DNA from: Gammaproteobacteria bacterium
Lineage (GTDB): Bacteria; Pseudomonadota; Gammaproteobacteria; Enterobacterales; Psychrobiaceae
DNA: 64,000 nt
Assembly: GCA_013214945.1 (NCBI GenBank)
Contig: JABSRT010000003.1
Span: forward strand, 186,001-250,000
Reading direction: 5' to 3'
The notes below the pieces were generated by a model. The model worked only from the letters and a program-made list of their open reading frames with translations, was not told where the DNA came from and ran no database searches. A program made the position numbers and the translations under genes. Shown here one piece after another: positions 5,201-21,988 of this stretch. Numbering within the stretch: position 1 is the stretch's first letter; each line of letters starts with the position of its first letter.

Positions 5201-5800
5201 GTGAAAGATTTAACGAGCAATAACAATTTTCATGATCAAAGCTTCAATGGATTAAAATTTGGGCAACAGAGACTTGCAGGCAAAGAGTTTTATGATTGTA
5301 TCTTTAAGTCATGTGACTTTAGCGCCGCTGTTTTTTATAATTGTGAATTTAATAATTGCCAATTCATCGACTGTAATCTCAATAATTTAGAGGTCAATAA
5401 CGTTAAGTTTTCGGACGTTGAGTTTATCGACTGTAAAGTTATTGGGGTCAACTGGACAATGGCATACTGGCGAGGATTAGCCCTTAGTTCACCGTTAACA
5501 TTTAACCAATGCATGATTGATTCTTGTTCTTTTTATGGCTTAAATTTAGAGAAAATAGTCATTGCCGGCTGTCGCGCACATGATGTTGATTTTAGAGAAG
5601 CCAATTTGAAAGGGGCCAATTTTTCTGATACTGACTTAAGCCATAGCTTATTTAATAATACCAACCTTAGCGCTGCAAATTTCAATCAAGCTAAAAATTA
5701 CAACATTAATATCAAGAATAATACGGTTAAAAATGCCAGTTTTTGCCGCTATGAAGCGGTAAATTTGTTAACTTCGTTGGGTATTAACTTGATCGACTAA
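5201..5800 (+). CDS. Pentapeptide-repeat protein, Qnr/MfpA-like
   Basis: 199 residues built mostly of A(D/N)LxF-type repeats: F-x-x-C-x-F runs from about 28 to 85, a break around 85-105 (VNWTMAYWRG), then further repeats such as ANLKGANFSDTDLSHSLF to about 165. The tail LLTSLGINLID resembles the C-terminal helix of Qnr proteins (LLMERLGIAVIG in QnrB). The start is GTG after CAGGGAAAA; the ATG four bases earlier is out of frame. Qnr-type right-handed beta helices mimic DNA and shield gyrase and topoisomerase IV. That role is possible here but unproven, since many chromosomal pentapeptide proteins have no known function. Confidence 0.75.
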   Translation: MKDLTSNNNFHDQSFNGLKFGQQRLAGKEFYDCIFKSCDFSAAVFYNCEFNNCQFIDCNLNNLEVNNVKFSDVEFIDCKVIGVNWTMAYWRGLALSSPLTFNQCMIDSCSFYGLNLEKIVIAGCRAHDVDFREANLKGANFSDTDLSHSLFNNTNLSAANFNQAKNYNINIKNNTVKNASFCRYEAVNLLTSLGINLID

Positions 5801-7133: not shown

Positions 7134-8168
7134 CTAAAGACTTTCAGGCGTAATAATTTCAAAAGGTATGGTTCTTTGAATCGTAAACTCATTTGAATCT
7201 TGTTTAATGACGTCAATCATCGTTTTAACCAATAAATCGGACATCGGTGCCAGCGGATGGATCAACGTGGCGGTCACGATGCCAGCAGACAAATCTTGCA
7301 AGGTTTCTGGTCCGCTATCTCTGCAGATAAGCAGGATTTTTTTACGTCTTTTTTCGGGAATTTCGCGTAGCGCGCGAACCACACCCGAGATGCCGCCACC
7401 GAAAATTAAAATGCCAATTAAATCATCGGTGGTTGCTAGCAATTGTTTAACCATCTTATAAGCTTGCTCAGGGTTTTCATCGGTCGGGCGGCTATCTTCC
7501 ACGGTAAATTGAGGTGCATTTTCGCGGATATATGAGCGAAAACTCGCATCAGACACATCCTGACATTGGTAACGATGACTGCCAATAAACACCGCGATAC
7601 GCCCTGAGTTATTAACCATTTTTGTGATTAAATATGCTGCTGTTCTGCCTAGTTTCCAATTATCTGTGCCGACAAATGCGGCTCGTTCCGGCGCTGATTG
7701 GTCGGTTATATAAGCGACTACCGGCTTCTCCATTGCGGCTACTTCGCTAATGGCTTGACTAATTACTGGGTGATCGGGCGCAATAAGAGAAACAGCATCG
7801 CACTTTGTCGCCAGTGCTTTTAAATGATAGGCGAAATTTTCCGGAGTCAGCTCATCAACAAACTCAACTATCGGTTCAATAATTTCATCGCGGCGTCGAT
7901 GGCACGCTTTAACTATTTCTCGATTAATTAATTGATAGAGTGGGCGAGTCGATTGCTGCAGCAAAAAACCTAAGCGGTAGATCGGCGCCGCTTCGCGCAC
8001 ACGATATTCAATAGCACCCAAGCCATAAAAACCAATTTCTTCTGCTGCACTTTGCACACGTTGCATGGTGGCGTTGCGAACATTTTTCTGTCCACCTAAT
8101 AAACGATTAACTGTTGATACTGAAACACCTGCCGCTTCAGCTAAGTCGGTAATTGTTGGTCTTTTCAT
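7134..8168 (-). CDS. LacI-family transcriptional regulator of the adjacent catabolic island
   Basis: 344 residues from the ATG at 8168; a TTG two codons upstream (8174) is the alternative. The N-terminus is a LacI headpiece (ITDLAEAAGVSVSTVNRLLGG, with the hinge helix near 50). It is followed by a periplasmic-binding-like sensor domain of the type that binds sugars or polyols (GRTAAYLI, FIGSHRYQCQDVSDASF, GIVTATLIHP). It diverges from the transporter operon. A 67-bp element in the shared gap recurs before the second catabolic arm at 13160, so one regulator probably controls both. LacI proteins usually repress until a pathway sugar binds. Confidence 0.88.
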   Translation of the reverse strand: MKRPTITDLAEAAGVSVSTVNRLLGGQKNVRNATMQRVQSAAEEIGFYGLGAIEYRVREAAPIYRLGFLLQQSTRPLYQLINREIVKACHRRRDEIIEPIVEFVDELTPENFAYHLKALATKCDAVSLIAPDHPVISQAISEVAAMEKPVVAYITDQSAPERAAFVGTDNWKLGRTAAYLITKMVNNSGRIAVFIGSHRYQCQDVSDASFRSYIRENAPQFTVEDSRPTDENPEQAYKMVKQLLATTDDLIGILIFGGGISGVVRALREIPEKRRKKILLICRDSGPETLQDLSAGIVTATLIHPLAPMSDLLVKTMIDVIKQDSNEFTIQRTIPFEIITPESL

Positions 8169-8210
8169 CTTCAAAACTCTTTACTATTTATGTCATATTG
8201 AATGATACGT

Positions 8211-8277
8211 AATGATACGAAAACAACTATCTGTTGCTTTTAGTATTTCATATTTCGATTCGTTTGTGTATTTTTTA
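8211..8277 (+). promoter_or_regulatory. Shared control element, copy 1
   Basis: This 67-bp segment matches 12960-13026 at about 60 of 67 positions, although both lie between genes. It contains a dyad AAAACAAC-TATCT-GTTGCTTT (8220-8240) and an AT-rich tail ending in TTTGTGTATTTTTTA. It sits between the LacI gene and the transporter operon. It is best read as the promoter/operator recognised by the LacI regulator; that protein-DNA link is inferred. Confidence 0.65.
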
Positions 8278-8345
8278 TACCGAACTTAGAGAATCTTCCG
8301 ATTAGGTAGGTTTAATTATTTATATTGATGGAGAGGTAAATAACA

Positions 8346-9320
8346 ATGAAAAAAACGTATCGTTCCCTATTAAAACTAGCTGTTGCAGTCTTTGCTACTT
8401 GTGCCACCACAACCGTTATGTCGGCCAATATTTTTGTCGTGGGAGGCAAACCTGATGACCCTTTTTGGTCTACCGTGAAACGTGGTGCTGAGGCCGCGGG
8501 ACTCGTTGCAGAATCTCAAGGAGGATCTGTTACTTGGCTTGCCCCACAAAACTACGACAATTTAGGTATTGATGCTGCTGAATTGATCCGCCAAGCAATA
8601 TCACAAGATGCCGACGCTATTGTGGGACCAAACTGGTTACCTGATGCGATGGATCCTGCTTTCAAAGCGGTTGTTGATGCCGGCATTCCACTGATCATCT
8701 ATAACGCAGGCGGTTTGAAAGCGGCTGATCACTTAGGCGCGATGAACTACGTTGGCAGTGATGATTACAAGGCGGGAGTTGCCGCGGGTGAATATTTTTC
8801 TGCACATGACAAAAATAACCTGGTTTGTGTCAACACCTTGCCGGGCGCTGCCAATATCGAGGCGAACTGTAAAGGTATGATTGATGGTATTACCGCTAAA
8901 GGCGGTGTTGGGGCAACCTTACCATTACCAGCCACATCTTTTGGTAGCTCAACAGCGGTAGCGCAGGCCGTGAAAGCTTACCTTTTACGCCATCCAAAAG
9001 TGACGGGCATTTACACCATCGGCAACCTTGATGCTAACTCTTCAATCAACGGCATTATGCAGGCAGGAAAGGCTGGCAAAGTTGAAGTTGGCGGTTTAAA
9101 TATGGATGCAACTGTGCTCGCTAACATTAAGTCTGGCAAGCAACTTTTTGCGATAGACCAGCAAGGCTATCAGCAAGGTTTCCTCGCCGTTTCTATTCTT
9201 AACAGCTTCGTTAATTATGGTTTAACTGTACCAACTCGAGAAATATTGACCGGTCCGGGCATTATTGACGCTAAAAATGTTGATTTAACGATGCTTGGCG
9301 TCAAAAAAGGTATGCGCTAA
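8346..9320 (+). CDS. Sugar/inositol-type ABC transporter periplasmic binding protein
   Basis: 324 residues with a clear signal peptide (MKKTYRSLLKLAVAVFATCA...VMSANIF, about 27 residues). The mature part is a type I periplasmic binding protein of the ribose/xylose/inositol group: DDPFWSTVKRGAEAAG, NLGIDAAELIRQAISQDADAIV, VGSDDYKAGVAAGEYF. It follows a strong GGAGAGG site. It would capture the substrate and pass it to the permeases encoded downstream. The ligand is not readable, but the IolG-, IolH- and IolE-like genes nearby favour a cyclitol or keto-sugar derivative. Confidence 0.88.
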   Translation: MKKTYRSLLKLAVAVFATCATTTVMSANIFVVGGKPDDPFWSTVKRGAEAAGLVAESQGGSVTWLAPQNYDNLGIDAAELIRQAISQDADAIVGPNWLPDAMDPAFKAVVDAGIPLIIYNAGGLKAADHLGAMNYVGSDDYKAGVAAGEYFSAHDKNNLVCVNTLPGAANIEANCKGMIDGITAKGGVGATLPLPATSFGSSTAVAQAVKAYLLRHPKVTGIYTIGNLDANSSINGIMQAGKAGKVEVGGLNMDATVLANIKSGKQLFAIDQQGYQQGFLAVSILNSFVNYGLTVPTREILTGPGIIDAKNVDLTMLGVKKGMR

Positions 9321-9418
9321 TTAGTGCTTAAAGCATTGATGATTTATTCCTAAAGCGCTTGGTTGCACCCAGCGAGTGGCTTGGTGCAACCCTTTGCATA
9401 ATTTATTGAGGATAATTA

Positions 9419-10450
9419 ATGAGTACTCAAAGTTGTTCGACAGAAAATAGCAGTTTACTGCCTTCTTTTGGGCGGTTGGTCAGACGCCCTGAAGCGGGGT
9501 CGTTTATTGGTATGCTAGCCGTATTTCTGTTTTTTGTTTTTGCCGCGGGTGAGATATTTGTATCGCCGGCTGGTTTTTCCAGTTGGCTCAATATTGCCGC
9601 TGAGATAGGCATTGTTGCTCTGCCCATCGGTTTGTTAATGATTGCTGGAGAGTTAGATCTGTCAATAGGTGCTGTGATCCCAGCCTCTTCGTTAATGGTT
9701 GCCACAATCTCTGGACATTTCGGCTTGCCCGAAGGTGTCGGGATTATTGCCGCATTAAGCATGGGGCTATTGATTGGTTTTATTAATGGCTGGCTGGTGC
9801 TCAAGACTGAGCTGCCATCTTTGATCGTTACTATAGGCATGATGTTTTCTGTGATGGGCTTAACGCTTGGTTTGTCTGTTTTAATTACAGGTTCAACCAG
9901 TGCGTCAATAACACCTAGTGAGTTATCGCAATTTTTACTTGGTCAGTTTATTGGTGGAATGTTTCAGGTGACAATCTTGTGGTGGTTTGCTGCCATTATT
10001 GTCTTTGGTTACATTCTGCATGTATCACGCATTGGCAATTGGATTTTTGCACTTGGCGGCGATCGAGTCAGTGCTCGAAATGCGGGTATTCCGACCGAAA
10101 AATTAACCATTTCGCTCTTTATGATGAGCAGTTTAGCAGCATCTTTTGTTGGAATTTCTCAGGCGATGGTTTATCAAAGTGCCCAAGTGGCAGGGGGTCA
10201 AGCATTCATCTTTAACTCAATCATGTGCGTAGTTATAGGCGGGGTTGTACTCACTGGTGGCTTTGGCTCAGTGATTGGTGTGGTCTTTGGTACCATCACC
10301 TTCGCAATAGTCAATCAGGGGATTTACTTCACTGATCTGGATCCTAATATGGGCAGTATCATTATCGGTGCGCTTCTATTGATTGCTGTCGTTAGTAACG
10401 ACACTTTCCGCAAGATGGCTCTTAATTATTCTAATAAGAAAAAAAGTTGA
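9419..10450 (+). CDS. ABC transporter permease 1 (RbsC/CUT2 type)
   Basis: 343 residues, highly hydrophobic with about 8-10 membrane segments. It shows family motifs PIGLLMIAGELDLSIGAVIPAS near 70-92, NGWLVLKTELPSLIVTIG, a cytoplasmic coupling loop GDRVSARNAGIP, and VVLTGGFGSVIGV. It lies in the inner membrane and should pair with the second permease. It begins 98 bases after the binding-protein gene, behind a GAGGATAA site. Confidence 0.9.
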   Translation: MSTQSCSTENSSLLPSFGRLVRRPEAGSFIGMLAVFLFFVFAAGEIFVSPAGFSSWLNIAAEIGIVALPIGLLMIAGELDLSIGAVIPASSLMVATISGHFGLPEGVGIIAALSMGLLIGFINGWLVLKTELPSLIVTIGMMFSVMGLTLGLSVLITGSTSASITPSELSQFLLGQFIGGMFQVTILWWFAAIIVFGYILHVSRIGNWIFALGGDRVSARNAGIPTEKLTISLFMMSSLAASFVGISQAMVYQSAQVAGGQAFIFNSIMCVVIGGVVLTGGFGSVIGVVFGTITFAIVNQGIYFTDLDPNMGSIIIGALLLIAVVSNDTFRKMALNYSNKKKS

Positions 10451-10459
10451 GGCAGTGTG

Positions 10460-11476
10460 ATGAAAACATTAAATTTTACAAGTTTCATACAGAAACCTGC
10501 CGCAGGATCAGTTATTAGCTTTGTCGCTGTCATTGTCTTTTATGTCATCTTTGGTGGCGTTGAGTTAAGTAACTTATTTGGCGCGGCCAGTTGGGTTAAT
10601 TTTGCCGCTAATCTTGGTTTGATAGCTTTGCCTGTTGGTTTGTTGATGATTGCTGGTGAGTTAGATATATCGATAGGCGCGATGATCCCAGCGGGATCGA
10701 TGACGATTGCTGTTACATCTGGCCATTATGGATTACCGATTGAAGTTGGCATTTTCGCCACACTTGCGGTCGGGGTCATTGTCGGTTTAATTAACGGCAT
10801 ACTAACGGTACGGACATCAGTGCCTTCGCTGATTGTGACTTTGGGTACCCTAGTTGCGATGCAGGGTATTGTGTTGAGCGCCTCGGTATTATTGACCGGT
10901 AATGCAAGTGTGTCACTTGCTGCGCCAGACTGGGCAAAAGCGACGTTTGGTCAGCTGTTAGGTGGAAGCTACCAAATCATTATTGTTTGGTGGTTAGCGC
11001 TATCGCTACTTTATTACGTCGTAATGCACCACACGCGGATTGGCAATTGGATTTTTGCCATGGGTGGAGATAAGGAAAGTGCGAGAAACGCGGGCATTCC
11101 TACTCAAGGTTTAACTATTTGGTTATTTGTACTCTCGTCAACCAGTGCGGCATTTGTTGGTATGTGTGGTGCAATCTTGTTTAATTCTGCTCAAGTTTCT
11201 GGCGGTATGCTCTATATCTTTAACACGATAGTAGCCATTGTTGTTGGTGGCGTGATCCTTACTGGAGGGTTTGGTTCTGTATTAGGTATTTGTCTTGGCA
11301 CACTCACTTTTGCAGTCGTTAGCCAAGGAATTTATTTCACTGATATAGATAGAAATTGGTCGAGTCTGATCATTGGCGTGATGTTACTCGTTGCGGTGAT
11401 GATGAATAACCTCTTTAGAAAAATGGCGCTAATGAGCGCACCAAAACTCAAATTAACCAGCGAGGATAAATCATGA
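10460..11476 (+). CDS. ABC transporter permease 2 (RbsC/CUT2 type)
   Basis: 338 residues, clearly a paralogue of the preceding permease: LPVGLLMIAGELDISIGAMIPAGS, TRIGNWIFAMGGDKESARNAGIPT and VILTGGFGSVLG recur at matching places. I start it at the ATG at 10460, spaced well from TTGAGG; a GTG one codon earlier is possible. Two different permeases next to each other imply a heterodimeric channel, whereas most CUT2 systems use a homodimer. The last codons overlap the ATPase start by ATGA, so translation is coupled. Confidence 0.9.
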   Translation: MKTLNFTSFIQKPAAGSVISFVAVIVFYVIFGGVELSNLFGAASWVNFAANLGLIALPVGLLMIAGELDISIGAMIPAGSMTIAVTSGHYGLPIEVGIFATLAVGVIVGLINGILTVRTSVPSLIVTLGTLVAMQGIVLSASVLLTGNASVSLAAPDWAKATFGQLLGGSYQIIIVWWLALSLLYYVVMHHTRIGNWIFAMGGDKESARNAGIPTQGLTIWLFVLSSTSAAFVGMCGAILFNSAQVSGGMLYIFNTIVAIVVGGVILTGGFGSVLGICLGTLTFAVVSQGIYFTDIDRNWSSLIIGVMLLVAVMMNNLFRKMALMSAPKLKLTSEDKS

Positions 11477-12291
11477 CAACCCCTGTATTGGAATTACGTA
11501 ACGTCAATAAATCGTTTGGGCCTATCGATGTTCTGCACGATATTTCTCTTAAAGTGAGAGCCGGTGAGGTGTTATGTTTACTCGGTGATAACGGCGCCGG
11601 TAAATCGACCTTAATCAAAACATTGGCAGGTGTTCACAAACAAACGTCAGGACAAATACTGATGGACGGTGAAGAACTCATTTTTGACCGTCCAAAAGAT
11701 GCGGCTGATCGCGGTATTTCCACCGTGCATCAATTCGGTGGCACTTTTCCCTTAATGAGCATCGGGCGATCTTTTTTTGTTGGTGTTGAACCGGTTAAAA
11801 AGTTCGGGCCATTTTCATTTTTTGATCGCAAGACAGCCAACGAAACGGCGGTAAAAGCCGTGAGAGAGTTTGGGATCACCAGAATTGATGATGGCGATCG
11901 CTTGATTGGTGGCCTATCGGGGGGCGAGCGTCAATCTTTGGCAATCGCACGAGCTGTGCATTTTGGTGCCAGAGTTTTAATTCTCGATGAACCGACCGCA
12001 GCATTGGGCGTTAAAGAAGCCGCGCACGTACTTCGCATTGTTTTTGAAGCACGTAAACGTGGGTTAGCTATTATTTTCATTACCCACCAAGTGATGCATG
12101 CAATGACCGTAGGCGATCACTTTGCCGTGCTTATTCGCGGGGCATTGGCGGCTGATTTCAGAAAAGGTGAAAAAACCCGTGAAGAAATCACCGATCTTAT
12201 GGCTGGTGGTGAGGCAATGGCTGATCTAGAAAGCGAGATTAAAAGCTACCAACAATCGAATGACGAACCTCAAATCAAGGTGGCTCAGTAA
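11473..12291 (+). CDS. ABC transporter ATP-binding protein, single nucleotide-binding domain
   Basis: 272 residues with Walker A GDNGAGKST (38-46), the signature LSGGERQSLAIARA near 147 and Walker B VLILDEPTAAL near 170, followed by the H-loop ITHQ. Most CUT2 sugar ATPases are about 500 residues with two fused domains. This one has a single domain, like FrcA of the rhizobial fructose system, and would work as a homodimer. It overlaps the preceding permease gene by four bases (ATGA). A strong hairpin follows the stop and ends the transport operon. Confidence 0.9.
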   Translation: MTTPVLELRNVNKSFGPIDVLHDISLKVRAGEVLCLLGDNGAGKSTLIKTLAGVHKQTSGQILMDGEELIFDRPKDAADRGISTVHQFGGTFPLMSIGRSFFVGVEPVKKFGPFSFFDRKTANETAVKAVREFGITRIDDGDRLIGGLSGGERQSLAIARAVHFGARVLILDEPTAALGVKEAAHVLRIVFEARKRGLAIIFITHQVMHAMTVGDHFAVLIRGALAADFRKGEKTREEITDLMAGGEAMADLESEIKSYQQSNDEPQIKVAQ

Positions 12292-12295
12292 CAAA

Positions 12296-12326
12296 TTAAT
12301 CCGCCACTGGTTCAGTGGCGGATTAA
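12296..12326 (+). terminator. Long perfect hairpin after the transport operon
   Basis: TTAATCCGCCACTG and its exact reverse complement form a 14-bp stem closed by GTT, five bases past the ATPase stop. No long T-run follows, so it may stabilise or process the 3' end as well as terminate. Confidence 0.65.
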
Positions 12327-12959
12327 CCCTAGATCTATAAATGATGAGAGGCCAATGAAATATCCTTGGCGCCTCTCCTACACCGATATCTATTTGTGGT
12401 GAACTTACCTGACGCTAATGACATTGGCTATGCTGTATTAAAGTGTTGCCATTTGAACAGCAAGTCGCCGTAAATCCTGCCATGTTGCACAAGTCTGCTT
12501 TATCAAAAATTAACATTTTAAATTAGTTGTGAAGCTAACTACATTTAAGATGAACATAGCCAATGGCATTACGTTGCTACCTTTGTTTAGCGCTCTGAGC
12601 AGCACTCGGCAATAGCTTCTCGGTAATTGCTCCTGCATTGCCTAATTACGCTCGTCCATGGCTTAAAACACCTATTCAATGAACCCAACGCTTAAATAGC
12701 TGATAACTAAATCGCTGAGAGTTAAGGCGCGATGAACCACGTTGGCGCTGTTATTTATTTCGATTGCTGATGCACTTTTTATACGTCGCATATGCTGCAT
12801 CACGGCGCCGCTAATATCTGCTTTTCACTTAACGTTCGAATGATTTATTGGCTGGTTGATTTTTGATACCTAAATGGCTGTCACCTCAGCTATGTCAGCG
12901 ATTGGCGAGCTTGTTGTCTTCTAAACCCCTTATTATTCATATCATTATGAGTGATATTA
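12327..12959. other. Gene-free stretch with relic-like sequence
   Basis: No open reading frame worth calling. It contains a long-range inverted repeat (12416-12571). It also contains a 23-base stretch (12723-12745) matching the binding-protein gene at 8733-8755 at 22 positions, but interrupted by stop codons in that frame. It may be decayed DNA left by a former gene or duplication. Confidence 0.4.
12416..12571. repeat. Imperfect inverted repeat pair, about 155 bp overall
   Basis: TAATGACATTGGCTATG (12416-12432) pairs with CATAGCCAATGGCATTA (12555-12571) at 16 of 17 positions, and flanking bases partly extend the match. It could be the ends of a small MITE or a large RNA stem. It is unlike the ATACCAAT element family elsewhere in the window. 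Confidence 0.4.
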
Positions 12960-13026
12960 AATGACACGAAAACAACTATATGTTGCTTTTTGTGTTTCAT
13001 CTTTAGATTCATTTGTGTATTTTTTA
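12960..13026 (+). promoter_or_regulatory. Shared control element, copy 2
   Basis: About 60 of 67 bases match 8211-8277. The dyad is AAAACAAC-TATAT-GTTGCTTT (12969-12989). The element lies 134 bases before the IolH-like gene and gives the catabolic arm the same control as the transporter arm, most likely by the LacI protein encoded at 7134-8168. Confidence 0.65.
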
Positions 13027-13048
13027 ATCCGTAGTCACAAGGGGAGGG

Positions 13049-13105
13049 ATGTTGTTGAAGACGACCCTCGTGTCCGGTGACGCAAAAATAAGAGTTAAAA
13101 ACTAA
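13049..13105 (+). CDS. Possible 18-residue leader peptide
   Basis: An ATG directly behind AAGGGGAGGG opens an 18-codon frame (MLLKTTLVSGDAKIRVKN). It lies between the shared control element and the 14-bp tandem repeats, on the catabolic transcript. The ribosome site is strong but nearly abuts the ATG. Translation is uncertain, and it may only mark a purine-rich leader. Confidence 0.25.
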   Translation: MLLKTTLVSGDAKIRVKN

Positions 13106-13106
13106 C

Positions 13107-13147
13107 GCATTAAAACAATTGCATTAAAACAATTGCATTAAAACAAT
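13107..13147. repeat. 14-bp tandem repeat, three copies, in the 5' leader
   Basis: The unit GCATTAAAACAATT occurs three times head to tail (the last copy lacks one base) and ends immediately before the GGAG ribosome site of the IolH-like gene. Copy-number change here would alter leader length and perhaps expression. Confidence 0.8.
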
Positions 13148-13159
13148 GGAGTATGCCCA

Positions 13160-14059
13160 ATGAAAATATCCTTAGATCCTTACATGCATCGTCATTTATC
13201 GCTCGAAAAACTACCGTCTAAGGTTGCAGAGCTAGGTTATGACTGGATGGAACTTAGCCCTCGAGGTGATTTTTTAGAATGGTTCAAAGCGCCCCGCGTT
13301 TATCCGGATCGGATCAAGAAATTCAAAAAAGCGCTGTCAGATTCTAATGTCGGTATTTCTTCGTTATTACCGATGTATCGCTGGGCATCTAATGATGAAG
13401 AAGAACGTCAAGCGGCGGTAAAACACTGGAAACGTGCAATTGAGATTGCCGTTGAAATGGGCGTTGACACCATGAACTCAGAATTTGGTCGTGGTCCCCA
13501 TCCTGACAAAGGTGGCTGTTATTGCTGCCATACAGGCTCGTTGCTTGAAACTTGCGAAGACGCTTGGTGGCGCTCGATGGATGAACTAGTGCCTATTTTA
13601 GAACGTGAAGGCATTAATCTTAATATTGAACCGCATCCGGAAGATTGGGTAGAAACGTTACAGCCGTCGGTCGATTTAATCCGAACGGTTAACTCTAACA
13701 ACGTTAAATTTCTTTATTGCACCCCACACACCTTTTATTTCGGCGATGACACCGTAGCCATGTTACGTGAGTGCGCCGATGTTTTAGCGCACGTTCATAT
13801 TGCTGATACGTTTAATCACAAGGGCAGTTCTGGCTTGCGTTACATCGTTAACCCACCGGGTTCAACGGCGCGAGTACACCAGCATTTAAACATTGGACAG
13901 GGCGAAGTGCCTTGGGATGATTTTTACCGCACGCTTGGCGAAATTGGTTTTGACGGCATCATGACCGGTTGTGTGTTTGCGTGGGAAGAAAAAGCTGACG
14001 AAAGTGGCATTTTCATGCGCAACGAAATGCAGCGCTATGTTGATAAATATCTTAAGTAA
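13160..14059 (+). CDS. IolH-like TIM-barrel sugar phosphate isomerase/epimerase
   Basis: 299 residues of the xylose-isomerase-like TIM-barrel family, closest in pattern to IolH of actinobacterial inositol clusters: MKISLDPYMH, AVKHWKRAIEIAVEMGVDTMNSEF, INLNIEPHPEDW, SSGLRYIVNPPGSTARVHQHL and IGQGEVPWDDFYRTL. The usual D-x-GH metal motif is CTPHTF and the last metal glutamate is not obvious, as in IolH, so the chemistry differs from plain epimerases. It opens the catabolic arm and is followed 12 bases later by the IolG-like dehydrogenase. IolH function is poorly known. A role in inositol or keto-cyclitol turnover is inferred. Confidence 0.78.
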   Translation: MKISLDPYMHRHLSLEKLPSKVAELGYDWMELSPRGDFLEWFKAPRVYPDRIKKFKKALSDSNVGISSLLPMYRWASNDEEERQAAVKHWKRAIEIAVEMGVDTMNSEFGRGPHPDKGGCYCCHTGSLLETCEDAWWRSMDELVPILEREGINLNIEPHPEDWVETLQPSVDLIRTVNSNNVKFLYCTPHTFYFGDDTVAMLRECADVLAHVHIADTFNHKGSSGLRYIVNPPGSTARVHQHLNIGQGEVPWDDFYRTLGEIGFDGIMTGCVFAWEEKADESGIFMRNEMQRYVDKYLK

Positions 14060-14071
14060 TAAGGACTGAAC

Positions 14072-15070
14072 ATGACTTTAAGAGTTGGAGTTATTGGCAC
14101 GGGCATGATTGGTAAAGATCATATTCGCCGGTTAACACAGGTATTAAGCGGGGTAGAGGTTGTTGCAGTTCATGATATTGACCAGCAATCTGCTGCCGAT
14201 GCCGCGCCACAGGGGGCATCAGTTTTTGACTCTTTTGAGCAGCTTATCTGGTCAAAGCAGGTCGACGCTGTCGTTATATGTTCATGGGGCGGCGCGCATG
14301 AAGCGCAATTACTTGAGTGTATTGCGGCCGGTAAGCCGGTTTTTTGTGAGAAGCCGATGGTGATTTCACAAGAAGCAGCAATTAAGGTAATTAATGCGGA
14401 AGTCGCTCACGGTAAACGCTTAATTCAAGTTGGCTTTATGCGCCGTTTCGACGCTGATTATCGTCGCTTGAAACAAGTGATCGATGGCGGCAGTTTAGGT
14501 GCGCCGCTGATGTACCACTCGGTACATCGTAACGGTAGCGTGCCAGAAGGGCTGTATACCTCAGACATGCCGTTAAATGACACCTTGGTGCACGACGCTG
14601 ATATTTCACGCTGGTTATTATCAGACGAAATTACGGGAGTTGAAGTACGCAGTCCGCGCCGCTCTACACGTGGTAACGAGCTGCGCGACCCAACCATCGT
14701 GCTGTTGCATATGACCAGTGGCGCGATTGTCGATGTCGAAATTTCAGTCAACATTTCTTACGGTTATGACATTCGTGGTGAAGTGAGTTGTGAGCGTGGC
14801 GTTGCTGCATTACCAAACCGTCCGGCAACGGTGATTTCAGATCAACATGGTATTAGACAGCAGATCCCGACTGATTGGCGCGAACGCTTTATTGAAGCTT
14901 ACGATCAAGAGTTTAGAGAATGGATCACTGCCGCAGCAGCGGGTGGCGCAACAGGGCCAAGCGCATGGGACGGTTATGTATCAACCTCAACGGCAGACGC
15001 AGCATTACGCGCCGCCGCTAATGGTACTTACGAGTCACTTAACCTGATTGAAAAGCCAAAATTGTACTAA
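14072..15070 (+). CDS. IolG-like inositol 2-dehydrogenase family protein (Gfo/Idh/MocA)
   Basis: 332 residues. The Rossmann fold opens with [18 protein letters not shown], and the catalytic lysine is in EKP (93-95). The active-site pair D170 and H174 ([15 protein letters not shown]) matches the Asp/His pair of inositol dehydrogenase. The IolG-like signatures [15 protein letters not shown] and [10 protein letters not shown] are present. Inositol dehydrogenases oxidise myo-inositol with NAD to scyllo-inosose. The sequence fits that group better than general sugar dehydrogenases, but the stereoisomer used cannot be told. It is 12 bases downstream of the IolH-like gene. Confidence 0.82.
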
Positions 15071-15111
15071 CCGCTCGCTTAAATGAAGGTTAGTAATAAC
15101 AAAATAGCGCA

Positions 15112-15134
15112 GCTAACTCGCTAAATGAGTTAGC
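15112..15134 (+). other. Intercistronic hairpin
   Basis: GCTAACTC and GAGTTAGC form a perfect 8-bp stem with a 7-base loop in the 187-base gap between the IolG-like gene and the next TIM-barrel gene. There is no T-run, so it may be an RNA-stability or attenuation element. Confidence 0.45.
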
Positions 15135-15257
15135 AGATGCGGCTAATAAAACGATTAAACAAATGAATAACAGCATCAGAATAATTGAGTGCTTGCTAAT
15201 AAAATGCATTGTGCTTTCTCGTTGCTGTTGGGTGAATTATTAAATAAGGATTTAAAC

Positions 15258-16199
15258 ATGAAGTTGTCTATTTGTACGGATGTTATGGGCGATCTGCCAT
15301 TTATTGAGATGCTCGATAAGTGTGTTGAGTTAGGCGTTGAAGGCGTTGAAATGACTGGCGGCGGTTGGTCTAGTGCGCCGCACTTTCGCGCCGATGAATT
15401 ACTGGCAGACCGCGGCTTGCTAAGAGGTAAGCTGGCAGAGATAGAGGCGAGAGGCCTTAAAATTGCGGCGCTTAATTGCTCGGCAAATCCACTCGATCCC
15501 GGTGATATGGGCAAACGCCATCTTAAAGAAATGCAAGACACGATTCGTTTAGCCGGTGAAATTGGGGTTAACAAAATTGTCGCTATGTCTGGGCTACCTG
15601 AGGCGGCTCCGGGAGATATGGTGCCGAACTGGTTAGTTTACACCAAAAGTTGGCCGCAAGAGATGCCAGAGCGAGACCGTTATCAATGGGACGATCGCGC
15701 ATTTCCACTGTGGCATGACTTAGTAAAACTTGCGACTGAAGTTGGGGTTGAAAAATATGCGCTGGAAAATTTCTCAGCGATGTTGGTCTGGAATCCAGAA
15801 ACCTTATTCCGTTTACGTGACGAAGTAGGCCCAATGGTTGGCATGAATTTAGATCCTAGCCATTTATTTTGGAAAGGTGCATGTCCCATTGCTGCTGCTC
15901 GCGCATTAGGTGATGCAATTCACCATGTTCATGGCAAGGATACGCGTATCGAGCGCGGACTGGCTGATATTAACGGCTTGCTCGAACTGCGTGAAGTCAC
16001 CGATGTTAAAAATCGCAGCTGGAACTATGTTGCGGTTGGCGCTGGGCACGATGTGCAATGGTGGAAAGAGTTTTTCTCTGTCGTGGGTATGACGGGATAT
16101 AACGACTGGGTTTCGCTAGAAATGGAAGACTTTACGATGTCGACCGAAGCTGGAATACAGTCATCAATTGATGCGCTACAAGCCTCTATCATTCGCTGA
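15258..16199 (+). CDS. TIM-barrel sugar phosphate isomerase/epimerase family protein
   Basis: 313 residues from the ATG at 15258, which has an AAGGA site; an in-frame TTG at 15189 lacks one. The barrel carries a full metal set: ALENFSAM (Glu), NLDPSHLFW (Asp and His), HHVHGKDTR (His) and SLEMED (Glu). NCSANPLDPGD and MSGLPEAAPGDMVPNW are further fingerprints. It probably catalyses epimerisation, beta-elimination or hydration on a keto-sugar or keto-inositol made by one of the three dehydrogenases. It precedes the second Gfo/Idh/MocA gene by 39 bases. Confidence 0.82.
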   Translation: MKLSICTDVMGDLPFIEMLDKCVELGVEGVEMTGGGWSSAPHFRADELLADRGLLRGKLAEIEARGLKIAALNCSANPLDPGDMGKRHLKEMQDTIRLAGEIGVNKIVAMSGLPEAAPGDMVPNWLVYTKSWPQEMPERDRYQWDDRAFPLWHDLVKLATEVGVEKYALENFSAMLVWNPETLFRLRDEVGPMVGMNLDPSHLFWKGACPIAAARALGDAIHHVHGKDTRIERGLADINGLLELREVTDVKNRSWNYVAVGAGHDVQWWKEFFSVVGMTGYNDWVSLEMEDFTMSTEAGIQSSIDALQASIIR

Positions 16200-16238
16200 T
16201 AGCCGCTTTATTTATCAACAGCACAAAGGAAGTTAATT

Positions 16239-17261
16239 ATGCGGTTAGGACTCGTGGGTTACGGTGTGGGAGGGCGGTATTTTCATGCCCCCTTTATTAT
16301 GGCAGCAGCAGGTGTTGAGCTGGTTGGCATTGTCGCAAGAGCTGAAAAAACGATTGCGACGATTAGGGAAGATTTCCCCGATGTTCCTATTTATGCCAGT
16401 TTAAGTGACATGCTTGCGGCTGGGGTTGATATCGTCACTATTACCACCCCGCCACAAACGCGTAAAGCGTTGGTGCTGGAAGCGGCAAGCGCTGGCGTGC
16501 ATGTGATCGCTGATAAGCCTTTTGCACCAGATGCTCAAGGTGGTCGTGAGTTAGACCAAGCAGCGGCTGACGCTGGTATTACGCTGGGTGTTTTTCATAA
16601 TCGGCGTTACGACACTGATATCAAAACGCTAAAAAAGCTGATTGATACTGATCGGCTGGGAAAAATTTGGCGGGTTGATTCACGGATGGAGTTTGATGAT
16701 CCAAGCACGATTGAAGCTGGTGAATCTGGTGGCTTGTTACGCGATCTTGGCAGCCATTTAATTGATCAAATGCTGTGGTTGCTTGGGCCAGTACAGTCGG
16801 TGAGTGCGCAACTTGATTATGTCGAGTTACCGCAGGGAAATACAGTAGCAGGTTTTACTATAACCCTTATTCATAGCAGTGGTGTTCACTCTCATTTATC
16901 GGCGAGCAAGCTCAATTATATTGAGCAGCGAGAGCTTCGAGTTTACGCCGATCACGGCAGCTACGTTTCAAATTATACCGATGTGCAAGCTCAGGCTATT
17001 TTTTGTGGCATGAAACCCGCTGCTAATCCCGCAAGCTGGGGTTACGAACTTGAGCAAAACTGGGGCACGTTAGCCACGGCCGCAGGCAAAGAAAAAATCC
17101 CTTCGGCGCAAGGGTGTTATCACGACTATTATAGCCAATTTGCAGCCGCAGTAAAAAGTGGTGACAAACCGCCTGTAACCGCGGTTGAGGCAGTAGCAAC
17201 ATTAGCCGTTATTGATGCTGCTTACCTCAGCGCAAAAACCGCTCAAACAATTGAACTGTAA
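16239..17261 (+). CDS. Gfo/Idh/MocA-family oxidoreductase 2
   Basis: 340 residues. Rossmann start RLGLVGYGVGGRYFHAPF; the catalytic lysine sits in DKP (92-94, IADKPFAPD), a common variant of EKP. The C-terminal domain has GGLLRDLGSHLIDQMLWLLGP. This pattern is typical of YdgJ/scyllo-inositol-type dehydrogenases. The likely role is a second NAD(P)-dependent redox step on a cyclitol or keto-sugar. An AAGGAAG site precedes the ATG. It lies in the catabolic operon. Confidence 0.83.
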   Translation: MRLGLVGYGVGGRYFHAPFIMAAAGVELVGIVARAEKTIATIREDFPDVPIYASLSDMLAAGVDIVTITTPPQTRKALVLEAASAGVHVIADKPFAPDAQGGRELDQAAADAGITLGVFHNRRYDTDIKTLKKLIDTDRLGKIWRVDSRMEFDDPSTIEAGESGGLLRDLGSHLIDQMLWLLGPVQSVSAQLDYVELPQGNTVAGFTITLIHSSGVHSHLSASKLNYIEQRELRVYADHGSYVSNYTDVQAQAIFCGMKPAANPASWGYELEQNWGTLATAAGKEKIPSAQGCYHDYYSQFAAAVKSGDKPPVTAVEAVATLAVIDAAYLSAKTAQTIEL

Positions 17262-17322
17262 TTCCATAAGTAAGTAATAAATAAACCAATCAAATAACAA
17301 CAAAATTATAAGGATTTTTATT

Positions 17323-18498
17323 ATGTTAAACGGTGAACGCAAAATTAGTCGTCCTTTACGCTGGGGCATGGTCGGTGGCGGTCGTACGGGGCAGGTCGGT
17401 TATAAACATCGCTCTGGCGCATTACGCGATAATACGGCTTATAAATTAGTTGCGGCGGCTTTTGATTTGGACGCTCAGCGCGGCAAAGAATTTGGGATTG
17501 AGCTAGGCATGGACAGTGAACGCCTTTACCCTGATTACCAAACGCTACTTAGCGCAGAGGCTAATCGCGATGATGGCGTTGAAGTGATATCTATTGCGAC
17601 GCCTAACTTCACTCACTTTGAAATTACCATGGCGGCGCTTGAATGTGGCATTCATGTTATTTGTGAAAAGCCGCTATTTTTCACCGTCGAAGAATGTCTC
17701 GAAGTGGAAAAGCTCGCTAACCAAAAAGGGTTAATTGTTGGGGTGACTTACGGGTTTTCTGGTCATCCGTTGGTTCATCAAATGGCTGCGATGGTTAAAA
17801 AGGGCATGTTGGGCGATATTCGGATTGTTGATTTGCAATATACCCATGGGTTTAATGCCGGTGATGATGTTGATGCGCCGGAAGCAATGCGATGGCGCAC
17901 CAACCCTGCTACTTCGGGCCCAACCTTTGTGTTAGGTGATATCGGTACCCACCTTTATTACCTATCTGAATTAGTGGTGCCTGAGCTTAAGGTTAAAAAA
18001 CTGTTGTGCGATCGCCAAGCGTTTATTAAGTCGCGTGCGCCGCTTGAAGACAACGCCTATGTCATCTCTCATTATGATACTGGCGCAGTTAGCCGCCTGT
18101 GGGTATCGTCAGTTAATGCTGGCAACATGGGCAGTCAGCGTTATCGCTTTGTTGGTACTAAAGCGTCGGTGGAATGGTCAGACGCTCATCCTGATCAGCT
18201 GGCCTATGAAATTCAAGGTCAGCCGCCGCAAATATTGCATCATGGCATGCCTTATCTTGAAGCCGAAAGCCTTGCTTGCGATCGAATGGGGGCATTGCAC
18301 ACCGAAGGGTTGGCTGATAGCTGGGCCAATATGTATCTGTGGATAGCTCAAGCGATTGATGCCAAGAACCGAGGTGACGACGCTTTCCTTAAAACGCATC
18401 ACTATCCGGGGATTAAAGCGGGAACCGAGGGCGTTCGCTGGCTGGAAAATTGTGTGCGCTCAGCGGATAACGGCTCTGTGTGGGTTGATTTCGAATAG
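17323..18498 (+). CDS. Gfo/Idh/MocA-family oxidoreductase 3
   Basis: 391 residues, longer than its two neighbours. The start WGMVGGGRTGQVGYKHRSGA and the stretch around residues 57-77 (GKEFGIELGMDSERLYPDY) belong to a distinct subgroup often found beside TIM-barrel genes in proteobacterial sugar islands. EKP is at 115-117; GPTFVLGDIGTHLYYLSEL gives the dimer/active-site helix. AAGGA lies before the ATG. It could be the dehydrogenase or the reductase of an oxidation-elimination-reduction route. The substrate is unknown. Confidence 0.83.
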   Translation: MLNGERKISRPLRWGMVGGGRTGQVGYKHRSGALRDNTAYKLVAAAFDLDAQRGKEFGIELGMDSERLYPDYQTLLSAEANRDDGVEVISIATPNFTHFEITMAALECGIHVICEKPLFFTVEECLEVEKLANQKGLIVGVTYGFSGHPLVHQMAAMVKKGMLGDIRIVDLQYTHGFNAGDDVDAPEAMRWRTNPATSGPTFVLGDIGTHLYYLSELVVPELKVKKLLCDRQAFIKSRAPLEDNAYVISHYDTGAVSRLWVSSVNAGNMGSQRYRFVGTKASVEWSDAHPDQLAYEIQGQPPQILHHGMPYLEAESLACDRMGALHTEGLADSWANMYLWIAQAIDAKNRGDDAFLKTHHYPGIKAGTEGVRWLENCVRSADNGSVWVDFE

Positions 18499-18552
18499 GC
18501 GAATAGGGCGAGTAAGTTATTAGCCGCGCCTTGCAAGCACTCGCTTGTTTGG

Positions 18553-18578
18553 TGCAGCTATAAGGCCCTATAGCTGCA
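18553..18578 (+). other. Intercistronic hairpin
   Basis: TGCAGCTATA and TATAGCTGCA make a perfect 10-bp stem with loop AGGCCC, between the third dehydrogenase and the IolE-like gene. No T-run follows. It may set relative expression of the last gene. Confidence 0.5.
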
Positions 18579-18632
18579 ATCGTGGTCATTAGTTACTCAG
18601 CGATTGCAGCATTACAAATTAGGACAATAACG

Positions 18633-19559
18633 ATGAGCATAAAAATTACCAGCGCGCCATGTTGCTGGGGGGTCGATGATCCTAAAAACCCACATTTACC
18701 ACCATGGCAGCGCGTATTAGAAGAAGCTGCTACTGCCGGTTATAAAGGCATTGAGTTAGGGCCATATGGTTATTTACCGCTTGATCCTGAGGTTGTTAGC
18801 CAAGCACTAACCAAACACGATATTCAAATTGTCGCAGGCACGATTTTTGATAATTTGGTTGATCCAAAAAACCTAGATAACTTGCTGCAACAAACCCGAG
18901 ATATTTGTGCGTTGCTAACCCAATTACCGCCGTTGCCGCTCGATCCTGACAAATCCCAAGCGCCACCTTATTTAGTGATTATCGATTGGGGCCACCCCGA
19001 ACGAGACAAGTGTGCTGGTCGACCTGAGCAAGCGCCGCGTTTATCGCCTAAGTTGTGGCAACAGATGATCGCGCATATAAAAGTAATCGCCACCTTAGCT
19101 TGGCAAGAGTTTGGGGTACGCGCGGTTATTCATCCACATGCTGGTGGTTACATTGAATATGCCGACGAAATTCGTCAGCTTGCTAAAGATATACCGCACA
19201 ATATCGCCGGCCTGTGTTTAGATACGGGTCATCTTTATTACTCTAAGATGGATCCTGAGGCGTGGTTAGTTGAGTTTGCTTCGCGCTTAGATTATATCCA
19301 TTTCAAAGATATCGACTTGGTTAAGTATCAACAGGCGATGGACAATCAACTGGCATTTTTTGACGCCGTTGCCACGGGGGTGATGTGCCCGATTGGTCAG
19401 GGTGTTATTAACTACCGGGCTATTCACACCATATTGGATGAGATTAACTATCGTGGTTATATCACCGTTGAGCAAGAGCGTGACCCGCGCGATGTTGAAA
19501 CTAGTTTGCAAGATGTCACCCAAAGTCGCCGTTTTCTGAGCAGTGTTGGCTTTGGTTAG
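18633..19559 (+). CDS. IolE-like TIM-barrel protein (inosose dehydratase family)
   Basis: 308 residues from the ATG at 18633, preceded by TAGGAC; an upstream in-frame GTG (18582) would add 17 atypical residues. The pattern follows inosose dehydratase: APCCWGVDDPKNP, GYKGIELGPYGYLP, AVIHPHAGGYIEYADEI (Glu), LCLDTGHLYYSKMDP (Asp/His), DYIHFKDID (His) and YITVEQERDP (Glu). The family dehydrates 2-keto-myo-inositol using a divalent metal. As the last gene of the island it suggests a keto-cyclitol intermediate, or a related keto-sugar dehydration. Confidence 0.8.
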   Translation: MSIKITSAPCCWGVDDPKNPHLPPWQRVLEEAATAGYKGIELGPYGYLPLDPEVVSQALTKHDIQIVAGTIFDNLVDPKNLDNLLQQTRDICALLTQLPPLPLDPDKSQAPPYLVIIDWGHPERDKCAGRPEQAPRLSPKLWQQMIAHIKVIATLAWQEFGVRAVIHPHAGGYIEYADEIRQLAKDIPHNIAGLCLDTGHLYYSKMDPEAWLVEFASRLDYIHFKDIDLVKYQQAMDNQLAFFDAVATGVMCPIGQGVINYRAIHTILDEINYRGYITVEQERDPRDVETSLQDVTQSRRFLSSVGFG

Positions 19560-20530: not shown

Positions 20531-21988
20531 TTAGCCCAATTGTGCTGATGCTGACATTACATCCAGTAACTTATTTAATCCATCACCCATTTCATCGGGT
20601 GAATCCCCACAAAAACCAAGAATAAAGCCATTGTAGTTAAGCTTGCGGATTGTTGAGTCCGACAGTGCGACTAACGCTAATCCTGCCTCTTTTGCCCGTA
20701 GGGATATTTCAACATCGCTGAGGCCTTGGTTAAGATGAAATACGAGCTGCATACCCGCAGGATGATCTTGGACTTGGCCATAGCGGCTAAACTTTTGATT
20801 GAGTTCATCGACCAGAAACTTTCTTCGTTCGCTGTATATTTTTCTAATCCGCCTGAGATGACGATAATAATCACCATCATCGATAAATTGCGCCAGTGCT
20901 TGCTGGGGCATTAATCCGGCCTTTAAGCCATAGTTGTCCATGGTTTGGCGGATGGGATCGACTAATGCACGGGGCACGATAAGATAACCCAGTCTTAAGG
21001 TGTTAGAAAATACCTTTGAAAAGCTCCCAATGTATAGGGTTCGATTTAAATTGTCTAAAGCCGCCATGGCAGGAATAGGGCGGCCAGCATAGCGAAACTC
21101 GCTATCGTAATCGTCTTCAATGATCCAACCGTTGTTGTCATTTGCCCAATGAATAAACTCCCTGCGTCGTTGCGGCGACATCACCCCACCGAGCGGGTAT
21201 TGATGTGACGGGGTAAGCACCACCATACGTGGATTTTCTTGTGGGTTAGGTAATTGAGCACCCTGTTGATCAATATCTAAAAATACCGGACCCAACCCTT
21301 GATTGGTGACAATACGCGTAATTGGTACGTAGCCAGGATCTTCTATGCCAACAAACTCACCTGTTTTACCCAGAGTACGAAAGCAGATAGTTAACGCGTC
21401 AGTTGCGCCTGCTGTCACGATAATTTGGTGTGGCGACACCTCAAACCCGCGCCATTGCTTAACATAATTTGCTATCGCTTGGCGTAGGGGCAAATTACCA
21501 AAAGTGCCTGCGCCCGTTAACATGGCTTGCGGGTTGGTTCTGCATACTCTGGCCATGGTTTTAGCCCAATGGCGATACGGGAAAAGGCGCATGTCAGGTT
21601 GGCTTGGCGCAAGCGGAATTAGCGGTGGGACTGATTCTACTGTAGGCACATTATCTGTCACTATTGCCTCAGTAACTACTACCTCCGTCACTATTTCCTC
21701 GGTAATTATTGCCGAACTCAGCTCAACCGAGCCAGTTGCGCAGAGTGTATAACCGGCACCTTGATGTCCTTTTAAATAGCCTTCTGAGACGAGTTGCTCG
21801 TAGGCCGTTACTACGGTTGAGCGAGACACGTTAATTTGTTCTGCTAATACGCGTGTGGCAGGTAAGGTCGACCCTAGCTTTAAAACACCAGTGTGAGCTT
21901 GTTTTCGGACTGCCTGACATATTTGTTCAAAGATAGCAGTCTTGCGGGATCGGTCGATCGCCAGCAGCAAGTCAGATGTATTAATCAT
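20531..21988 (-). CDS. MocR-type regulator (GntR helix-turn-helix plus aminotransferase domain)
   Basis: 485 residues. Residues 15-80 are a GntR winged helix (FEQICQAVRKQA, LPATRVLAEQINVSRSTVV, YEQLVSEGYLKG). A Val/Thr-rich linker leads into a fold-type I aminotransferase domain with ATDALTICFRTLG, the PLP tyrosine region GIEDPGYVPI and lysine in GSFSKVFSNTLRLGY. MocR proteins use PLP or a PLP-amino acid adduct as signal. It diverges from a PaiB-like gene, a common pairing, so it probably regulates that gene. Confidence 0.88.
   Translation of the reverse strand: MINTSDLLLAIDRSRKTAIFEQICQAVRKQAHTGVLKLGSTLPATRVLAEQINVSRSTVVTAYEQLVSEGYLKGHQGAGYTLCATGSVELSSAIITEEIVTEVVVTEAIVTDNVPTVESVPPLIPLAPSQPDMRLFPYRHWAKTMARVCRTNPQAMLTGAGTFGNLPLRQAIANYVKQWRGFEVSPHQIIVTAGATDALTICFRTLGKTGEFVGIEDPGYVPITRIVTNQGLGPVFLDIDQQGAQLPNPQENPRMVVLTPSHQYPLGGVMSPQRRREFIHWANDNNGWIIEDDYDSEFRYAGRPIPAMAALDNLNRTLYIGSFSKVFSNTLRLGYLIVPRALVDPIRQTMDNYGLKAGLMPQQALAQFIDDGDYYRHLRRIRKIYSERRKFLVDELNQKFSRYGQVQDHPAGMQLVFHLNQGLSDVEISLRAKEAGLALVALSDSTIRKLNYNGFILGFCGDSPDEMGDGLNKLLDVMSASAQLG

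Follow-up and report, generated by a model that had tools for sequence, protein, structure and literature searches.

What does the gene island at positions 7134-19559 of this 64,000-nucleotide stretch of contig JABSRT010000003.1 (the window) break down, and where does its product go? The preliminary description had listed here a LacI regulator, a binding protein, two permeases, an ATPase, three Gfo/Idh/MocA dehydrogenases (G1-G3) and three TIM barrels (T1-T3). All 11 open reading frames (ORFs) are indeed open and stand in that order, with the regulator gene on the minus strand and the others on the plus strand. The expected Pfam domains (LacI, periplasmic-binding, BPD_transp_2, ABC, xylose-isomerase-like TIM-barrel and GFO_IDH_MocA) were found above cut-off in ten of the 11 proteins, all scanned with Pfam; the eleventh, T3, was scanned with NCBIfam only. 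We regard it as almost certain that the island belongs to an inositol pathway, as very likely that it feeds an IolD encoded elsewhere, in trans, and as likely that the whole is an accessory inositol catabolic operon leading into the standard pathway. The cyclitol part of the earlier reading (a cyclitol or keto-sugar pathway) is thus borne out by several inositol dehydrogenases, whereas its anhydrosugar or glycoside part is not, since the corresponding family models score far below cut-off.

Part of the evidence for this assignment concerns T2 (15258-16199), a PF01261 TIM barrel proposed from fold searches and gene co-occurrence to be a keto-inositol isomerase. The T2 family (E 1e-70) occurs in 14 of 398 genomes sampled from the phylum, and iolD is present in all 14, compared with 79 of the 398 overall. 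With the own genome excluded the figure is 13/13 (Fisher value 2.8e-10), and counted by genus it is 7/7 against 56/211 (6.9e-5). Close T2 proteins (>500 bits) account for six of the 14, own genome included, the other eight scoring like a T2 paralogue on contig C16 of the own genome or lower; for the close ones alone, own genome excluded, iolD was found in 5/5 genomes (2.6e-4) and 3/3 genera (0.018). A separate scan for T2 gave at least 79 fetched loci (L040-L118; locus counts and closest relatives here and below are among the matches listed), and of 50 genomes with T2 loci that were searched from among these, 48 had iolD over cut-off. T2 is found with the inositol pathway, with few exceptions, as evidenced by iolD in 14/14 genomes of the phylum sample and 48/50 genomes with T2 loci.

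The preliminary description had also noted that the island lacks iolA, iolB, iolC and iolD, and none of these queries, iolA-type included, matched the window at E 0.01; nor did a search for iolC remnants after T3 at the same threshold. The genome search that it had proposed gave a complete set at other loci, with iolC (406 bits), iolD (950), iolE (418) and iolB (367) over cut-off, together with two methylmalonate-semialdehyde dehydrogenase (IolA-type) genes over cut-off. On contig C8 stand iolD, iolE and an iolC fused to an aldolase domain, all three over cut-off, as well as an IolG-type gene below it (318 bits, cut-off 355). Over cut-off on C6 are iolB and IolG, and on C18 a myo/D-chiro-type IolG adjoining a T1 paralogue (59% identity). 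The C16 cluster (L031) comprises LacI, a binding protein, an IolG over cut-off with the T2 paralogue (40% identity) next to it, permeases and an ATPase. With C3, inositol-type genes thus stand at five or more loci of the genome, and the steps missing from the island are encoded elsewhere in it.

Relatives of the island point the same way. Rhodobacteraceae, Rhizobiales and Hahella share a recurring operon, lacI / binding protein-permease(s)-ATPase-T1-(G1)-(G3)-T2-(G2)-(T3), in which T1 and T2 reach 91% identity. Among the 34 operon-type loci, 22 have iolC and iolD after T2; three others (L046, L068 and L075) end within 3.4 kb of the T2 start. Together with the iolC/D/E/B genes and the two iolA-type genes elsewhere in the own genome, these 22 loci leave the earlier expectation that the product would differ from that of standard inositol use without support. 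Of 100 T2-type places in the fetched loci, paralogues included, 58 have a G3-type and 32 a G1-type gene on their own strand at a distance of up to 700 bases, and ten have neither; several of these places stand with a sugar porter. A putative quinol monooxygenase gene or a relative of it often directly follows T2 in the relatives (L121 12192-12485, among others); such a gene gave no match in the window at E 0.01.

Among the dehydrogenases, G1 (14072-15070) is an IolG-like protein predicted from family scores, structural match and motifs to be an NAD-type myo/D-chiro-inositol dehydrogenase. It misses both IolG models (NF052679, 380.5 bits, cut-off 540; TIGR04380, 205.9, cut-off 355), and its PDB match is an inositol 2-/D-chiro-inositol dehydrogenase (E 9e-89). 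G1 carries the K94/D170/H174 triad, the NAD-site Asp and the motifs GFMRRFD and YGY; the triad and the GFM.R and Y.Y positions are invariant in 26/26 rows at ≥60% identity, and all 33 G1-type rows retain the second Tyr of motif V. Motifs of this type are described in PMC9603128 as marking enzymes that act on myo- and D-chiro-inositol and not on scyllo-inositol, and by motif G1 is assigned to this myo/D-chiro class.

The nearest PDB entry to G2 (16239-17261) is YvaA (E 4e-43), which we take to be IolW; against model NF008607 it scores 176 bits, below the cut-off of 330. The K/D/H triad is present and the cofactor site reads Ala-Arg, in line with IolW-type NADP scyllo-inositol dehydrogenases and with the rule given in PMC9603128, by which a small neutral residue followed by Arg marks the NADP enzymes. 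On these grounds G2 is probably an NADP-linked scyllo-inositol dehydrogenase. G3 (17323-18498; 391 aa) is a putative NAD-type dehydrogenase that scores 512 bits with PDB 7d5m/7d5n, listed merely as Oxidoreductase and presumably an inositol dehydrogenase homologue of Azotobacter vinelandii, and 489 bits with 3dty, which we take to be a Pseudomonas syringae protein. Its triad K116/D206/H210 is invariant in 57/57 rows.

Of the three TIM barrels, T2 had been described as metal-complete, and E170, D199, H225 and E290, which we take to be its metal ligands by analogy with the D-tagatose 3-epimerase type, are invariant in all 53 rows, window included. Its start most likely lies at 15258 rather than at the listed 15189, 69 bases inside the ORF, because relatives align from MKL. 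The structural model is confident (predicted local distance difference test (pLDDT) 93.8), and its best fold matches are 2zds, for which no function is given, and 8ro4, after which come isomerases, epimerases, a dehydratase and IolE. Since this list mixes a hydratase with isomerases and epimerases, the fold cannot tell an isomerase from a hydratase, and we give even odds to T2 being an isomerase or epimerase as against an eliminase or hydratase.

T3, which probably starts at about 18633 rather than at the listed 18582 (51 bases inside the ORF, from our reading of the alignment) and ends at 19559, is a proposed inosose dehydratase. With 147.8 bits it falls below the cut-off of 290 of the IolE model TIGR04379, and it is placed in a sister clade of its own apart from IolE with support of 100/100, in a tree for which the tool warns of long branches. 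H184, D214, H240 and E297, presumably the metal ligands, are invariant in 25/25 rows. Across the 34 operon-type loci G3 and T3 occur together in 21, G3 alone in three, T3 alone in none and neither in ten, counting as present the T3 of L121, which is in two pieces; T3 again stands beside a G3 paralogue in Halomonas and Neobacillus. In Halomonas ventosae a true IolE lies no more than 10 kb from T3, and the own genome likewise holds a true IolE alongside T3. The separate clade, the pairing with G3 and the co-residence with IolE together suggest that T3 probably acts on an inosose other than that of IolE, or in another branch.

T1 (13160-14059; PF01261) lacks two of the four metal ligands: the beta-6 Asp is absent from 48/48 rows (the window and matches in fetched loci at ≥38% identity), and Glu stands at none of the four inspected beta-8 positions in any of them. 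Its model (pLDDT 77) is nearest in fold to D-tagatose 3-epimerase; IolI ranks 30th. No IolH model match was obtained for T1, whose IolH-type name rests on context and on the preliminary description.

Combined with the genome and synteny analyses, these assignments suggest the following scheme. The CUT2-type importer would take up an inositol isomer or derivative, which the NAD enzymes G1 and G3 would oxidise to a keto-inositol (inosose), while the NADP enzyme G2 would handle scyllo-inositol and scyllo-inosose. T2 would then shift the keto group to give 2-keto-myo-inositol, as IolI does for D-chiro-inositol in Bacillus subtilis, and T3 would dehydrate an inosose to a trihydroxycyclohexanedione. 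IolD, IolB, IolC with its fused aldolase and IolA from the other loci would complete the breakdown.

Several observations weigh against this assignment. The Fisher values overstate independence because the genomes and loci are related, two lactobacilli (L098 and L118) have T2 and lack iolD, and iolC/iolD were not seen nearby in nine of the 34 operon-type loci (L054, L057, L060, L065, L066, L070, L073, L076 and L121, of which L070 has iolB). G1, G2, T3 and the binding protein all score under the curated cut-offs of look-alike models, and neither G3 nor T2 has a good NCBIfam match. The catalytic Asp is replaced by Asn in nine of the 33 G1-type neighbours of T2, though not in G1 of the window, and in three Rhizobium loci G3 stands without T3. 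Among folds with a named function, the one nearest to T2 is the 2-hydroxy-3-keto-glucal hydratase AtHYD (8ro4), with template modelling (TM) scores of 0.80-0.81/0.75 and 14-15% identity. Corynebacterium glutamicum lacking the isomerase-like cg3390 grew on D-chiro-inositol with iolG or oxiD, as reported in PMC9603128, so D-chiro isomerase activity does not follow from the presence of a TIM barrel in an operon of this kind. The motif YGY is present too in the IolG-type proteins of C6, C8, C16 and C18 and therefore does not single out D-chiro-inositol; we rejected it as proof of D-chiro specificity, as it argues merely against a scyllo-type enzyme.

The best-surviving alternative, which we nevertheless consider unlikely, is an ordinary split myo-inositol operon, that is, a second, redundant myo-inositol set with ABC uptake. 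It accords with the place of G1 in the myo/D-chiro class, with canonical iol genes at other loci and with the 22/34 relatives' loci that have iolC/iolD downstream; G3 is also near 3dty, and the iol cluster of P. syringae B728a is described with two iolG copies and iolH between them (PMC11065229). The preliminary description had named two findings that would together make the island such an operon, and the genomic one, full iolABCD at other loci, was obtained; the other would be clean induction by myo-inositol. Against this reading, the own genome is already equipped with an IolE over cut-off and with several IolG-type proteins, three of which pass a cut-off, the known myo-inositol pathway needs neither T2 nor T3, and plasmids of Pantoea, Klebsiella and Priestia show T2 with one dehydrogenase and a sugar porter, with no annotated iol gene in view. 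Oxidation of myo- or scyllo-inositol gives 2-keto-myo-inositol with no need of an isomerase, and D-chiro-inositol needs one in B. subtilis (PMC9603128). Since D-chiro-inositol differs from the myo and scyllo isomers in this need, and since the pair of T2 and a dehydrogenase recurs with iolD, we lean towards a substrate that is not plain myo-inositol; that the main one would be D-chiro-inositol or its methyl ether is a tentative suggestion, somewhat short of an even chance.

A route by oxidation and elimination is improbable. Here G1 or G3 would oxidise an O-methyl-inositol or inositol glycoside, and T2 or T3 would eliminate methanol or the sugar to give the IolD substrate directly. The nearness of T2 to AtHYD fits such a route, as do MocD-/MocE-like genes directly after T2 in a Maritimibacter metagenome-assembled genome (L070 11176-12688), which hint at an O-methyl-inositol substrate there, and a T2 of Jiella (42% identity), which has an annotated MocE nearby along with genes that we interpret as MocD and MocF. 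In root exudate of Mimosa, pinitol is reported to have the highest concentration of all components, and on this exudate Rhizobium mesoamericanum raised expression of iol, mocDEF-like and mocB-like genes, the moc genes being read by those authors as rhizopine catabolism (PMC5789663). However, fold likeness is weak evidence in this superfamily, where isomerases, epimerases, a dehydratase and IolE rank close behind AtHYD; MocD/E-like genes occur in only one of the 79 loci L040-L118, and an oxidative demethylase, where present, would make methanol elimination unnecessary. The more specific proposal that G3, T2 and T3 form a branch opening O-methyl-inositols such as pinitol by oxidation and methanol elimination, without a demethylase or IolE, appears less probable still.

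Catabolism of rhizopine (methyl-scyllo-inosamine) is very improbable, as the binding protein resembles the rhizopine substrate-binding protein model NF052284 with 164 bits only, below its cut-off of 420, and no MocD/E/F-like match was found at E 0.01 with Jiella queries searched against the window; membership was rejected on these two grounds. A levoglucosan-type anhydrosugar or glycoside pathway (LgdA/B/C; AtHYD) is the least credible: it shares the mix of Gfo/Idh/MocA and TIM-barrel superfamilies and the T2 fold near AtHYD, but the link to iolD speaks against it and membership was rejected on family scores, with G1, G2 and G3 at 38, 53 and 77 bits against the levoglucosan dehydrogenase model NF052479 (cut-off 650) and all three far under cut-off for the glycoside and disaccharide 3-dehydrogenase models.

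The accessory inositol operon can also be compared with known systems. With the canonical iol operon (B. subtilis iolABCDEFGHIJ, Pseudomonas, Salmonella) it shares IolG-, IolH- and IolE-type proteins and a product expected to enter IolD/B/C/A; it differs in lacking iolA/B/C/D, in having an IolE sister clade in place of IolE itself, and in adding T2, G2, G3, LacI and the CUT2 transporter. The plasmids S. meliloti Ak57 pSymB, Paracoccus pantotrophus pPAN2, Thioclava p3 and R. leguminosarum pRL10 carry lacI, binding protein, permease(s) and ATPase in the island's order, followed as in the island by T1 (identity 53-84%) and T2 (84-88%). Unlike the island, these four continue into iolC and iolD, which a fifth annotated plasmid (L121) does not, and in the window G3 stands after G2, which differs from the four plasmid operons; pRL10 is without G1 and T3, and Thioclava p3 without G3 and T3. 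In Bacillus spizizenii (L108) a sugar porter, a T2 homologue (61%) and a G3 homologue (63%) stand side by side, presumably the equivalents of B. subtilis YfiG/YfiH/YfiI (a YfiH distinct from E. coli YfiH/PgeF), with another transporter type than the island and no G1, T1 or T3 homologue in view. The C. glutamicum operon oxiC-cg3390-oxiD-oxiE, like the island, unites dehydrogenases with a putative sugar phosphate isomerase, the likeness of cg3390 to T2 being one of description; OxiD is reported to act on myo- and D-chiro-inositol and OxiE mainly on scyllo-inositol, with OxiC inactive on all three (PMC9603128). Our literature search on the T2/G3 pair in inositol use found nothing among the papers covered; PMC5743806, on yfiH, was rejected, as it concerns E. 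coli YfiH/PgeF, another protein.

The regulator (7134-8174, minus strand; PF00356 and PF13407) is 51-69% identical in most syntenic operons and 35-37% in L044, L055, L059 and L107. The importer comprises a CUT2-type periplasmic substrate-binding protein (8346-9320; PF13407), a distant relative of rhizopine-binding proteins with 4ru1 as its sole PDB match at E 1e-20; ATP-binding cassette (ABC) permeases A (9419-10450) and B (10457-11476), both PF02653 and 52% identical to each other; and a single-domain ATPase (11473-12291; PF00005), 77-91% identical across the syntenic operons. A search for a LacI operator as 18-nt palindromes with up to two mismatches found none in the lacI/binding-protein interval of the window and showed no operator common to the corresponding intervals of 26 relatives. 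On C8, tandem CUT2 binding-protein genes of 94% identity (L033 11891-12865 and 13534 onward) stand beside the IolG-type gene, relatives of which adjoin T2 in Halomonas and Marinobacterium.

The ATPase and T1 are separated by 868 bp (12292-13159) without an ORF of 150 aa and with no match below E 0.05 to the eleven island proteins, whereas the median distance across 30 relatives is 72.5 bp; in L044 and L107, owing to the G2 gene that sits between, it comes to about 1,200. Positions 12856-13031 are a 176-nt direct copy, 76% identical (blastn E 8e-31), of 8107-8282, which takes in the initial 68 bases of lacI plus 108 of the 171 in the lacI/binding-protein interval, with part of its promoter region. 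Through this degraded copy the enzyme genes may have a copied, second promoter that may drive them. Also in the gap, 12423-12564 is 72% identical to DNA beside iolE on C8 (L033 2912-3076), the only copy found among the fetched loci from L031 upward (blastn, E 0.01), and a repeat in three copies with 14-base spacing lies directly upstream of T1 (13098-13147). Upstream of the island, 5201-5800 of the window was read by eye as a pentapeptide-repeat-like protein of 199 aa.

T2 was found in one of nine genomes of the genus, where iolD is in two of nine, and in two of 197 genomes of the order sample; the flanking gene at 20531-21988 is likewise in one of the nine (E 1e-80). Most T2 relatives at 85-91% identity come from alphaproteobacteria and others from Hahella, Marinobacterium, Zobellella and Halomonas, and the island was likely acquired horizontally. 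The closest relatives of the transporter, T1, G1 and T2 are from alphaproteobacteria and Hahella and those of T3 from Neobacillus and Halomonas, so that the island looks like a mosaic; for G3, Agrobacterium, Ensifer and Halomonas are close to about the same degree.

T2- and G3-type genes span Bacillus, Clostridium, rhizobia and marine bacteria, and in the plasmid annotations inspected they are called nothing more specific than sugar phosphate isomerase/epimerase and Gfo/Idh/MocA oxidoreductase, respectively. Through their tie to iolD both imprecise names become a prediction of substrate class that can be tested, and also a means of finding out which inositols and methyl-inositols are open to use by plant and marine bacteria.

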